A stretch of 64,000 bases of DNA, from positions 1 to 64,000 of the forward strand of contig JAFIEP010000138.1 in NCBI GenBank assembly GCA_020832495.1, in the 5' to 3' direction. The number at the start of each line of letters is the position of its first letter. Position 1 is the stretch's first letter. The notes beneath the pieces were generated by a model, which was given only the letters and a program-made list of their open reading frames with translations, had not been told where the DNA came from and made no database searches. This DNA comes from Acidimicrobiia bacterium. GTDB lineage: Bacteria; Actinomycetota; Acidimicrobiia; Acidimicrobiales; Acidimicrobilacustridaceae. The translations under genes and the position numbers were made by a program. Below, one piece after another: positions 1 through 34,185 of the stretch.

Positions 1-234
1 CGCGGTGATGAGCGTGCCGGCCAGCCAGGCGTGCTCCCGCACGACGACGCCGACCGCTGTGCCCCCGAACACCGAGGCCAGCAGGGCCAAGGTGAGCGGC
101 AGATGGCACGGGCAGAACACGAAGGACCCGAACAGCCAAAGCCGGCCGCGCCGCTCGAGCACCGGTGTGGGCTCGACACGGCTCGCAGACACGCCTGGTG
201 GCTCCACGAGCGGGGTAGGGGGCTTCGTCGTCAT
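1..234 (-). CDS. MerE-like heavy-metal transport protein (C-terminus off window)
   Basis: This is the N-terminal 78 residues of a small membrane protein read on the minus strand; the rest lies before base 1. A polar, proline-rich stretch (residues 1-30) is followed by a hydrophobic segment carrying the motif CPCHLPL (Cys41 and Cys43), then a second hydrophobic run with GGTAVGVVVREHAW. The CPCHLP motif followed by a Gly-rich helix and a Glu-His is characteristic of MerE/MerT-like mercury transporters, in which the vicinal cysteines carry the metal through the inner membrane. The start ATG sits 6 bases downstream of a TATAGT -10 box, so the message is probably leaderless. A CsoR-type operator in the promoter argues for metal-responsive control, possibly copper rather than mercury. 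Family call good, substrate uncertain. Confidence 0.7.
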   Translation of the reverse strand, partial: MTTKPPTPLVEPPGVSASRVEPTPVLERRGRLWLFGSFVFCPCHLPLTLALLASVFGGTAVGVVVREHAWLAGTLITA

Positions 235-240
235 GCCCAC

Positions 241-269
241 ACTATACCCTAGGGGGTATCAGCTGGCAA
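241..269 (-). promoter_or_regulatory. Promoter with CsoR/DUF156-type operator for the MerE-like gene
   Basis: On the minus strand a -35 TTGCCA (264-269) and a -10 TATAGT (241-246) are separated by exactly 17 bases. The spacer and the edge of the -10 contain the inverted repeat ATACCC-N4-GGGTAT (244-259). G/C-tract operators of this TACCC...GGGTA form are bound by CsoR-family copper sensors and relatives. The operator would occlude RNA polymerase until metal binds the repressor. No csoR gene is visible in the window. Confidence 0.65.
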
Positions 270-316: not shown

Positions 317-1324
317 TCACCATCCATCCCAGGGTGGTGCGTCGCTCGACTGGAACTCGATGGCCCCGGAATCGCAACCAGAACCGACAGGACGCGGCGC
401 ACCTCGCAGATCCGTGGTGCGCTGGCCCCCACACGAGTGCAGGCCCTCCGGCACCCGGTGCCTGATCAGCGTGGTCGGGAGGGGTATCTCGTACCAGAGG
501 TGGATGTCGATGATCTCCACAAAGTGCCCGTCGTGGGGGATGGCGCCGACCGCGTCACCGGGGCCGTCGAGTCCACACGTGTCAGAGGTGCCGACGCTGT
601 AGCCCAACGACGTCGGCGCGGTTCCTTCGCAGAATCCGCGCAGGACGCTCGAGGCGAACGTCGTGGTCCCGTCGCCCTGCGTCCGCACGACAGGGCCTTG
701 CTGGGCCCCCCAGAGTGTGATTCCCCTCAGGGTCGACGCAACCAGGTGGACGGTGCCCTCGTTCCTCACCGGTTGACCGAGCGTGGCCATGTAGGAGAGC
801 TCGGCGACGAACGCACCCTCAGCGCCGACACGAACCACTGGAGCGTTCGGGTTCACGAACACGCCGCGGCGAAGCACGGCCGTTCCCTCGACCTCGAGGG
901 TTCCCGGGACACCGAGGCCTTCCGCTGCGAGCACACCCCCTTCTTCGACGCGCAGCACGGCGGTCGACGACCAGGCGGCGTCGATCGCGGCGAAGGTGGC
1001 CGGATCACTGTGGGCTCCCCAGTTGATCTGCACGTTGGACGTCACCACCATCGTGCCCAGGTCCCAGTCGTACACACCCGCAGGTGCCGCGACCTGGGCG
1101 CGGTCAACGGTGTTGGACTCCTCGATCGCAGCACGCAACGTGCAATCGCCCTCGCCCGCTGTCGCTTCGCACACCCCGTCACCCGGCGCGGCGGCCGCCG
1201 CGTCAGCGAAGGTCGTCACCTCGAACAACGGGGGTGGCTCCCCGGGCTCACAGGCGCTCAGCAGCAACCCCACGCCGACCGCAGCCGACACACCAATCAC
1301 GACCCTTGTCCCCCGACGCATCAT
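317..1324 (-). CDS. CSLREA-domain lipoprotein
   Basis: The 335-residue protein begins with a type II signal peptide: Arg-rich start, hydrophobic run, then the lipobox LLSAC with Cys25. A CSLREA-type segment follows (DGVCEATAGEGDCTLRAAI, about residues 49-67), as found at the start of many exported actinobacterial and chloroflexal surface proteins with parallel beta-helix bodies. The body is rich in Val, Gly, Thr and Asn with short repeating turns, consistent with a right-handed beta-helix. I chose the ATG at 1324 (first of two adjacent Met codons) because the longer frame up to 1402 would bury the signal peptide; a GGGGATGG stretch precedes it. Role is surface or extracellular; substrate unknown. 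Confidence 0.6.
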   Translation of the reverse strand: MMRRGTRVVIGVSAAVGVGLLLSACEPGEPPPLFEVTTFADAAAAAPGDGVCEATAGEGDCTLRAAIEESNTVDRAQVAAPAGVYDWDLGTMVVTSNVQINWGAHSDPATFAAIDAAWSSTAVLRVEEGGVLAAEGLGVPGTLEVEGTAVLRRGVFVNPNAPVVRVGAEGAFVAELSYMATLGQPVRNEGTVHLVASTLRGITLWGAQQGPVVRTQGDGTTTFASSVLRGFCEGTAPTSLGYSVGTSDTCGLDGPGDAVGAIPHDGHFVEIIDIHLWYEIPLPTTLIRHRVPEGLHSCGGQRTTDLRGAPRPVGSGCDSGAIEFQSSDAPPWDGW

Positions 1325-1515
1325 GAACCATCCCCGCGAGTGCAGGTCCACCCACCGGAAGGGAAGACATCCGCAACACCGGATCGTAGCGAGTGGGTCC
1401 ATCTCCCGCCGGTCGTTTCGCGCGTCGGCGTGCAGACGCCGGTGGCTCCCGAAACGGACGGTCCGGTCTGGGGGGCCGTTGCGCAGTCTGGCCGCAGGCG
1501 TTAGGTGGGGGCACG

Positions 1516-3296: not shown

Positions 3297-3935
3297 ATGC
3301 CCCATCCGCGCCTCGTCCTGGCATCGGCCTCGCCGACCCGCGCCAGCATCCTGCGGACGGCCGGATTCGACCCCGAGATCCGAGTGAGCGGCGTGGACGA
3401 GACCGAGGTGGCCCCCGACGACGTGCGGGCCATGGTGGCCGCGCTGGCCCGCCTGAAGGCCACTGCCGTCGCCGACCGCCTCGCCACGGAGGTGACCGAC
3501 GACGAGCAGGCCCTGGTCGTTGGATGCGACTCGCTGTTCGAGTGGGACGGGCACCCGGTGGGCAAGCCTGCCGACGTTGCCGAGGCCCGGGCCCGCTGGC
3601 GGGCCATGCGTGGCCGAGCCGGGCTCCTGCACACCGGCCACTGCGTCATCGCCTGTCCCGGCGGCGACAGCGCCGAGGGGGTGGCCACCTCGACGGTCCG
3701 CTTCGGCAGGCCGACCGACGACGAGATCGAGGCCTACCTGGCCACCGGCGAGCCACTCGAGGTCGCCGGTGCCGCCACCATCGAAGGTCGCTCGGCGCCC
3801 TTCATCGACGGCATCGAGGGCGACCACACCAATGTGCTGGGACTGTCGCTCCCCCTCCTGCGCACGCTCCTGGCCGACCTCGGCGTGGCCATCACCGACC
3901 TGTGGGTCCCACCCGGTGGGGTCTCGACCCCGTGA
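3297..3935 (+). CDS. maf: Maf-family nucleoside triphosphate pyrophosphatase
   Basis: The 212-residue product matches the usual Maf length. Maf proteins are cytoplasmic house-cleaning enzymes that hydrolyse non-canonical or surplus nucleoside triphosphates to monophosphate and pyrophosphate. Seen here: the N-terminal LASASPTRASILR loop (phosphate-binding SASPxR), VVGCDSLFEWDG...VGKP replacing the commoner AADT...LGKP, and the C-terminal GIEGDHTNVLGLSLPLL segment that closes the active site. The GCDS variant is characteristic of the actinobacterial Maf-like branch. The ATG at 3297 was chosen because homology begins there; the same frame is open far upstream but is not protein-like. It precedes dus by 112 bases on the same strand. 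Confidence 0.85.
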   Translation: MPHPRLVLASASPTRASILRTAGFDPEIRVSGVDETEVAPDDVRAMVAALARLKATAVADRLATEVTDDEQALVVGCDSLFEWDGHPVGKPADVAEARARWRAMRGRAGLLHTGHCVIACPGGDSAEGVATSTVRFGRPTDDEIEAYLATGEPLEVAGAATIEGRSAPFIDGIEGDHTNVLGLSLPLLRTLLADLGVAITDLWVPPGGVSTP

Positions 3936-26536: not shown

Positions 26537-28333
26537 TCAGCGGTCGTCGGGCCCGATCACCAACCGCAGCCGGAAAGCGTCGGCCGTGTCGGGGTGATCA
26601 CGGCGTGTGTGGGCCCCGCGGCTCTCGGTCCGCATCGCCGCGGCAGCCAGGGTGGCCGTGGCCAGCTCCGCCAGGTTGGCCACCTCGAGCGCCGCCGGCG
26701 ACGGCACCGCACCGGCGGCGTCCTCCACGGCGGGGCCCACGCCGCCGGCGTCGGTGACCCCGATCCCCGCAGCGGCAGCACCGGTTCCCGCAGGCCCGAC
26801 CGCCCCCAGTGCACGAACCACCTCGGTGATGTCCCCCGAGGCGTCGGCCAACGACGTGGCGCTGCGCAGGACCCCGGCGTGGAGGGTCATGGCCCGTTGC
26901 AGACGGTCACGCAGCGCTGCAACCGCGCCGTCGTCGAGCGGTGGTTCGGATGCTCCCTCCGACGAGCGCCCGACACGCTCCCTCGACGGCGAGCCGTCGA
27001 TCGAGTCGACGCCGATCGGGGGACGAACCGGGTGCCAGCCGGCGACCCGCCGGCCACCGATGGTGCCCGGTTCACCAGACGCCGCCGGGCCGCCGGGCTC
27101 GGCCCCACCGCGCGGACCGGTAGCCACCACCGTCCGCATCGCCCCCGTCGGTTCACACCCGTCGGCTCCACTGTCGATGGCCTCGATGACCCGGTGGGCG
27201 AACACCATGCCCTCGAGCAGCGAGTTGGAGGCCAGGCGGTTGGCACCGTGCACTCCCGAGCACGCCACCTCACCGGCGGCCCACAGCCCGTCGACCGAGG
27301 TGGCGCCCCGCAGATCGGTGACCACACCACCGCAGAGGTAGTGGGCCGCCGGGGCGATGGGCAGCCAGTCAGCGGCGGGGTCGAGCCCCACGTCGCCGAG
27401 CGCCGCGGCGATGGTGGGGAACCGTTCACCGAAGCGCTCCAACCCGGTGGCATCCAGCCACAGGTGGTCGACCCCCTGGTCGGCCATGCGGGCCGTCATG
27501 GCCCGCGACACGGCGTCGCGGGGCAGCAACTCGTCCACGAAGCGGTCGCCATCGCGGTCGCGCAGCAACGCGCCGTGCCCGCGCAACGCCTCCGACAGCA
27601 GCGGGCGAGGCATGCGGGGGTGGTGCAACGCCGTTGGATGGAACTGCACGAACTCGACATCCGCGCAGGCGGCACCGGCCCGCAGCGCCATGGCGATACC
27701 GTCGCCGGTTGCCTCGACCGGGTTGGTGGTCACGGCGAACAGTTGCCCGGCACCGCCGGTGGCCAGCAATACGTGACGGGCCGTGACCTGTCGCCAGCGG
27801 CCGTGCCGGTCCACGGCCAACACGCCCCGGCAGCGCCCGTCGGTCACCACGAGGTCGACAGCGAAAGCGTGCTCGTGCACGGCCACGGCGGTGGCCAGCA
27901 CGGCGTCGGCCAGGGCCCGTTCGATCTCGATGCCAGTCGCAGCCCCGCCGGCGTGCACGATGCGGGCACGCGAGTGGCCGCCTTCGCGAGCCAACTCCAG
28001 GCGACCCTCCGCGTCGCGGTCGAACGAGGCGCCCAGCGCCACCAGCGCGTGCACTCGGTCGGGACCCTCGTCCACCAGGACCCGGGCGGCCTCGGCGTCG
28101 CACAGGCCCGCCCCGGCCGCCAAGGTGTCGGCCAGGTGCAGGTCGGTGGAATCGGGATCCTCGCCGAGTACGGCAGCCACGCCGCCCTGCGCCCAGCGGG
28201 TGGTGCTCTGCTGGAGCGCTCCCTTGGTGAGCACCCCCACCGACATGCCGTAGCGCTCGGTGGCCTGCACCGCAGCGGTCAGTCCGGCAACACCGCTCCC
28301 CAGCACCAACAGGTCGAGCGGATCGTCACCCAC
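26537..28333 (-). CDS. nadB: L-aspartate oxidase
   Basis: NadB is the FAD enzyme that oxidises L-aspartate to iminoaspartate for quinolinate synthesis. The 598 residues include the FAD-binding GSGVAGL (12-18), STTRWAQGGVAA, the HARIVHAGG-like RARIVHAGG, QFHPTALHHPR, RDAVSRAM, and GANRLASNSLLEGMVF near residue 370. It is longer than E. coli NadB (540) because of a Gly/Pro/Ser-rich insertion between the FAD domain and the C-terminal helical domain (about residues 395-465). GTG start; no strong ribosome-binding site seen. No nadA is present nearby. It is followed by nadC after 43 bases. Confidence 0.93.
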   Translation of the reverse strand: MGDDPLDLLVLGSGVAGLTAAVQATERYGMSVGVLTKGALQQSTTRWAQGGVAAVLGEDPDSTDLHLADTLAAGAGLCDAEAARVLVDEGPDRVHALVALGASFDRDAEGRLELAREGGHSRARIVHAGGAATGIEIERALADAVLATAVAVHEHAFAVDLVVTDGRCRGVLAVDRHGRWRQVTARHVLLATGGAGQLFAVTTNPVEATGDGIAMALRAGAACADVEFVQFHPTALHHPRMPRPLLSEALRGHGALLRDRDGDRFVDELLPRDAVSRAMTARMADQGVDHLWLDATGLERFGERFPTIAAALGDVGLDPAADWLPIAPAAHYLCGGVVTDLRGATSVDGLWAAGEVACSGVHGANRLASNSLLEGMVFAHRVIEAIDSGADGCEPTGAMRTVVATGPRGGAEPGGPAASGEPGTIGGRRVAGWHPVRPPIGVDSIDGSPSRERVGRSSEGASEPPLDDGAVAALRDRLQRAMTLHAGVLRSATSLADASGDITEVVRALGAVGPAGTGAAAAGIGVTDAGGVGPAVEDAAGAVPSPAALEVANLAELATATLAAAAMRTESRGAHTRRDHPDTADAFRLRLVIGPDDR

Positions 28334-33653: not shown

Positions 33654-34185
33654 GCTGCCACGACCTGGGATGCCTGCCGAGTTTGGCGGACATCATGGGC
33701 ACGGATCATACGTACCCCGAGGTGCATCGCCCACACCGCGGTGGCGATCGACCCCTCGAGGCGGTCCTCGGGACCGACGGACGCCACCCCGTCACTGGCC
33801 GCCAACAACGTTCCCAGCGTGCTCTTCCGGCTGGTCCCCACCACAACGGGGAAGCCGCTGGCCACCAGGCGATCCAACGAGGCCAACAGGGCCAGGTTGT
33901 GCTCGATCGTCTTGCCGAAACCGATGCCCGGGTCGATCCAGACCTCCGTCACGCCGGCCGCCGTCGCCGCCGCCGCTCGCTCTGTGAGGAACCGGTTCAC
34001 CTCATCGACCACGTCGTCGTAGGTCGGCGCCTGCTGCATGGTGCGCGGCTCGCCGGCCATGTGGACGGCCACCCAACCCACCCCAAGCTCGGCCGCCACC
34101 GGCCACAGCGTGGCCGAGACGTCGTTGACGAGGCTGGCACCGACCGCAACCGCCGCTCGGGCCACCTCGGCGTGGCGGGTGTCGA
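33650..34185 (-). pseudogene. folP: Dihydropteroate synthase gene, 5' part lost at the palindrome axis
   Basis: Only the C-terminal 180 or so residues of FolP remain. Family sequence begins with VSIDTRHAEVARAAV at the axis and continues through LVNDVSA, WVAVHMAGEPRTMQ, WIDPGIGFGKTIEHN (phosphate and pterin binding) and GTSRKSTLG to a normal C-terminus. The N-terminal half with the NVTPDSFSDGG block is missing; upstream of the axis the frame reads the other arm's antisense strand. The truncation is a consequence of the inverted-repeat join, not of ordinary decay. It overlaps the next gene by 4 bases. Confidence 0.9.

Follow-up and report, generated by a model that had tools for sequence, protein, structure and literature searches.

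A MerE-like gene of an Acidimicrobiia bacterium as a probable member of a CstR-type persulfide regulon

The window analysed here comprises bases 1-64000 (64,000 bases in all) of contig C50 (68,370 bases) from a 4.46-Mb assembly of an Acidimicrobiia bacterium in 147 contigs. At its left edge, the first 78 codons of a MerE-like gene are encoded on the minus strand (positions 1-234), where the start of contig C50 at base 1 truncates the gene. Window positions 1-141 match the final 141 bases of contig C59 exactly, and the reading frame continues in that contig (L013:12781-13008, minus strand) to a stop codon. This overlap supplies the sequence before base 1, which the first-pass annotation of this DNA had asked for, and gives a full protein of 106 residues, assembled across the C59-C50 contig overlap and not from one read. 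A 361-residue lipoprotein-like protein without a Pfam match at an E value of 0.1 is encoded next to the MerE-like gene (317-1402, minus strand). Part of the gene calls were made with a simple codon-score finder, by which starts may be missed or misplaced. Contig C50 is identical to its own reverse complement at every one of its 68,370 bases, and this perfect 68-kb palindrome almost certainly arose as an error of assembly. The two halves of the window mirror each other, and features beyond about 34,185 are duplicates of left-side ones. The palindrome centre, near 34,180, interrupts a gene that was judged by eye to be dihydropteroate-synthase-like (folP-like).

Upstream of the probable ATG start codon of the MerE-like gene (232-234, minus strand), a -10 element TATAGT (241-246) and a -35 element TTGCCA (264-269) can be read on the same strand at a distance of 17 bases, and their functional roles are putative. 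The near-ideal promoter spacing noted in the first-pass annotation was thus found again, as was the ATACCC-N4-GGGTAT repeat that had been placed in the spacer. This inverted repeat is located at 244-259 (ATACCCTAGGGGGTAT; ATACCCCCTAGGGTAT on the minus strand) and also shares three bases with the -10 element; at this position, it therefore covers most of the promoter spacer together with three bases of the -10 element. It is conserved in relatives, has the published form of a ScCsoR site (see below), and represents a putative CstR-type (sulfane-sulfur) operator. The ATG follows only six bases past the -10 element, a distance that suggests a leaderless mRNA, and in several relatives the ATG lies at or inside the operator.

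The CPCHLP motif that had been ascribed to the protein is confirmed in the translated frame, which ends with a C-terminal GGACP. The protein narrowly passes the Pfam family MerE (PF05052) with 25.6 bits against a cut-off of 22.8 (E 1.1e-5), where a plasmid MerE reaches 69.6 bits. It fails the NCBIfam MerE equivalog (NF010310) with 31 bits against a cut-off of 80, which the plasmid MerE passes with 93.5 bits. MerE-like matches were found in 9 of 99 related genomes searched and in 7 of 395 genomes across the class, both counts including the genome studied here. For comparison, 52 loci were fetched, the closer ones mostly from Acidimicrobiales MAGs. In a tree restricted to 53 rows with an intact CPCHLP reading frame, the window protein falls within a group of 30 Acidimicrobiia rows (support 97/93), apart from three MerE proteins of mer operons. 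Together with the Pfam match, this agrees with the earlier assignment to a separate branch of the MerE family. As in MerE of mer operons, CPCHLP lies in the first helix of a small membrane protein; the window protein differs from them by a longer N-terminus and a conserved C-terminal cysteine. A cysteine C-terminal to CPCHLP is present in 34 of 36 close rows and 8 of 14 distant rows, but in none of the three plasmid MerE. The predicted structure of a relative (L047) is mostly helical (pLDDT 78), and a PDB fold search with this model gave no hit at an E value of 0.001 or better, the best being 0.75, so that the model offers no clue to function.

Membership in a mer operon was rejected. No mer genes were seen on either side of the gene in the window and its C59 continuation, including the MerR-type mer operon directly upstream that would have spoken against the first-pass reading. 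In this genome, no MerA exceeds the cut-off, the best match reaching 299.5 of 454.45 bits.

The putative operator recurs in the genome, as had been suggested for checking. The exact ATACCC-N4-GGGTAT is found at five places in 4.46 Mb and the reversed-pattern control at none. Since contig C50 is a perfect palindrome, the match at C50:68112 merely mirrors that in the window and was not counted as a second site, which leaves four distinct sites. In addition to the MerE-like gene (C50, window 244-259), these precede a rhodanese-YgaP protein followed by a SulP permease (C32), an MBL-rhodanese, i.e. a persulfide dioxygenase (C126), and a small Cys-rich ORF followed by a 1-Cys peroxiredoxin (C31). 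The MerE-like promoter carries the operator form ATACC-N6-GGTAT, and persulfide dioxygenase and rhodanese genes stand under the same operator (C126, C32), as does TauE at a relative locus (L056). Sites matching only TACCC-N4-GGGTA at C41, C97 and C141 lie inside or at the edges of unrelated genes and were treated as chance occurrences.

Two genes of the CsoR family are present in this genome, both on contig C107. The first encodes a CsoR with a Cys-His-Cys pattern, whose residues we take to be copper ligands, and has copZ and copA nearby, these two named by eye. The second (26697-26930) encodes a Cys-Gly-Cys regulator of the CstR type without the copper-ligand histidine; this label rests on the residue pattern and the neighbours, and the best-scoring solved relatives by sequence carry the name CsoR. 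The start of this gene is overlapped by TACCC-N4-GGGTA, which places an operator in the promoter of a two-cysteine CsoR-family regulator. The copA and csoR genes carry a different site, GATACCCCCC-N3-CCTAT, which occurs twice in the whole genome (L027 5674 and 7407, C107) and is the probable operator of the copper CsoR. In the 15-kb stretch around csoR and copA, the best match to ATACCC-N4-GGGTAT has three mismatches.

The same division is seen in other genomes. CsoR-family genes were surveyed in 27 genomes chosen for carrying a MerE-like gene; of 49 matches, all were read except a fragment at the end of a contig, which left 48 genes. Within the 150 bases preceding the gene, TACC-N6-GGTA is present for 1 of 26 Cys-His-Cys regulators and for 16 of 22 others (Fisher p 4.6e-7, a guide only, because some of the 27 genomes are close kin). 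The strict site is found in the same range for none of the 26 and for 8 of the 22. In 4 of the 27 genomes no CsoR-family gene was found, and the MerE-like genes of these genomes lack the operator. The earlier claim of a CsoR-family operator is therefore borne out in the sense that the site tracks CstR-type genes and corresponds to a published sulfane-sulfur sensor site. Two CstR-type regulators, L126 and L141 (genomes G468 and G469), lack the second cysteine and keep loose promoter sites.

At the MerE-like gene itself, the operator is conserved among relatives. The comparison covered 39 close loci (the window and 38 others) and 20 distant loci. Among the close loci, 14 of 39 have the strict site within 600 bases upstream of the MerE-like gene, where shuffles expect 0.0, and chance was rejected as the source of these operators. 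In three more (L056, L075, G005), the operator lies further upstream and heads the operon. An exact operator at gene or operon is absent in 22 of the 39, ten of which belong to an 11-row sister group. On the tree, the operator is present in 16 of 19 Acidimicrobiia rows outside this sister group; of the remaining three, G006 deviates from it at one position, and L048 and L055 carry no operator. Within the sister group, it is found in L075 only. Distant MerE-like loci have the strict site in 0 of 20 and the loose site in 1 of 20 cases. A chance combination of promoter, repeat, and CPCHLP protein is very unlikely on these sequence comparisons, because relatives keep the operator at the corresponding position.

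In related Acidimicrobiia, the MerE-like gene stands alone under the operator or behind sulfur-type partners. The operator is followed by MBL-rhodanese, TauE, and the MerE-like gene in L056, by MBL-rhodanese and the MerE-like gene in L075, by thioredoxin and the MerE-like gene in L050, L064, and L067, and by DUF302 and the MerE-like gene in G005. Ten related genomes contain 37 exact sites compared to none in the control. Beside these sites, MBL-rhodanese, rhodanese, TauE, thioredoxin, peroxiredoxin, a CoA-disulfide-reductase-like protein, and CstR-type genes are encoded, as well as DUF302, MMPL proteins, the Cys-rich ORF, and MerE-like genes; some of these neighbours are confirmed by Pfam or NCBIfam and the rest were named by eye. 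A few of the 37 sites have no clear target. No copper ATPase, CopZ, or copper oxidase was seen beside the 37 sites in these ten genomes.

Persulfide-responsive circuits of this kind have been described for the cst operon of Staphylococcus aureus and for sco0619-0621 of Streptomyces coelicolor. In S. coelicolor, the repressor ScCsoR occupies ATACCn6GGTAT sites in the promoters of its own gene, of a rhodanese, and of a persulfide dioxygenase with TauE, and polysulfide makes it dissociate (PMC7533328). The window operator conforms to ATACCn6GGTAT and extends each half-site inwards by one base (C and G). The circuits share with the regulon described here a two-cysteine CstR-type repressor and persulfide dioxygenase, rhodanese, and TauE as targets. 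Unlike these circuits, the present regulon is scattered over contigs and includes the MerE-like gene and the Cys-rich ORF. Thermus thermophilus likewise has, in addition to a copper CsoR, another repressor of this family, TTHA1953, with a site of its own and sulfur targets (PMC10318464). The likeness lies in a DNA site different from the copper one; TTHA1953 differs in the site itself (TACNNTACNNNNGTANNGTA), in having Sox targets, and in that no NaHS response was reported for it.

These observations suggest that the MerE-like gene probably belongs to a CstR-type persulfide regulon and that its protein handles sulfane sulfur. The regulatory part is the firmer one: operator, regulon membership, and recurrence in relatives make control by a CstR-type persulfide sensor very probable. 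For the protein, with cysteine conservation as further sequence evidence, sulfane-sulfur handling is slightly better than an even guess, and recruitment of a MerE-family membrane protein to persulfide handling appears to be the best reading. Binding and release of the repressor are modelled on published homologs, and cargo and direction are conjectural. The CstR-type repressor encoded on C107 (26697-26930), bound to the operator over spacer and -10 element, would block the leaderless promoter. Rising sulfane sulfur would modify the cysteine pair of the repressor, which would then leave the DNA. Upon derepression, the MerE-like protein would be produced together with persulfide dioxygenase, rhodanese, the SulP-type transporter, peroxiredoxin, and the Cys-rich protein. 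The CPC pair in the first membrane helix and the third cysteine near the C-terminus would most likely accept sulfur from persulfide or polysulfide, and the protein would then conduct this sulfur across the membrane or release it from there, in a manner similar to the thiol-to-thiol transfer of Hg(II) by MerE. Like Hg(II), sulfane sulfur is a soft species that is handed from one thiol to another, so that the CPC pair of a MerE-type helix could serve to deliver sulfur to cytoplasmic acceptors or to collect it from them.

The first-pass annotation had instead proposed a copper-regulated or copper-transporting branch of the MerE family, in which a copper CsoR would control a copper-moving MerE relative. 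The site does resemble CsoR-family operators in general, and a Cys-His-Cys CsoR with copA and copZ nearby is present in the genome. Following up the proposed link to csoR and a copper ATPase led, however, to the separate GATACCCCCC-N3-CCTAT site, found only at copA and csoR on C107 in place of the window operator. Because of this separate site and the association of the operator with CstR-type genes (a loose ATACC-type site at 16 of 22 regulators lacking the Cys-His-Cys triad versus 1 of 26 that have it), copper control was rejected. The sulfur genes and the lack of copper genes at the 37 sites of the ten relatives likewise argue against it, and it is regarded as extremely improbable. A working Hg(II) transporter whose promoter has come under a thiol-stress repressor is likewise improbable, if less extremely so. 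It would account for the Pfam MerE match over cut-off and for the retained CPC pair and neighboring histidine: Cys28, Cys30, and His31, which correspond to the CPCH of CPCHLP, matter for Hg(II) uptake by Tn21 MerE (PMC5715351). Import of Hg(II) without MerA would, however, harm the cell, and among 18 genomes with a MerE-like gene MerA exceeds the cut-off in just one (G005), which is not the present genome. The failed NCBIfam equivalog (31 of 80 bits) and the sulfur genes as operon partners in place of a mer operon are further points against mercury transport. Hg(II) or copper may attack such a repressor as well.

A different function under the same operator is conceivable, in which the protein moves reducing equivalents or disulfides, and not sulfur, across the membrane for thioredoxin in the manner of a minimal DsbD or CcdA. 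Its Pro-flanked cysteines in a membrane helix presumably recall those two proteins, and thioredoxin is encoded directly upstream in L050, L064, and L067. This neighbor is missing at most copies, however, and the L047 model gave no significant PDB fold match, so that such a relay is unlikely but carries more weight than transport of either metal. Compared with these alternatives, sulfane-sulfur handling under CstR-type control remains the preferred reading. As a wider conjecture, which is rather doubtful at present, MerE-type proteins could be a family of sulfane-sulfur (persulfide or polysulfide) membrane conduits serving the persulfide response in Actinomycetota and relatives, and the Hg(II) transporter of mer operons an offshoot with a common thiol-relay design that has lost the C-terminal cysteine.

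A literature search, with subscription journals mostly outside it, retrieved no paper that ties MerE to a persulfide response, and the word MerE does not occur in PMC7533328 and PMC5480029. In the accessible portions of the persulfide-response papers, TauE is named for sulfite export, and no protein is named that would carry persulfide or polysulfide as such across the membrane. A family known for mercury uptake that recurs under a persulfide operator thus provides a concrete candidate for a persulfide or polysulfide carrier. It also serves as a warning that a MerE match does not mean mercury resistance. Furthermore, the control of copper and of sulfur genes within one cell may be divided between members of a single repressor family via two clearly different DNA sites. 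All evidence for these views is drawn from sequences, mostly of metagenome assemblies.

Two further features of the regulon were observed. The rhodanese promoter on C32 has two neighboring sites, TACCCCATCGGGTA and TACCCCCAGAGGTA (L002 positions 635 and 653), and two sites are likewise described for the persulfide dioxygenase promoter of S. coelicolor (PMC7533328). The Cys-rich ORF on C31 (L006, from near 3658 downwards, minus strand) encodes about 50-60 residues with the pattern MCxxVxCxxCxxPTxAGCGxHVEQVL, and its copy in this genome has no match in Pfam or NCBIfam. In this genome, its ATG falls within the operator sequence, as is the case at eight sites in related genomes (L046, L162, L167, L168, L169, L176, L183, and L188).
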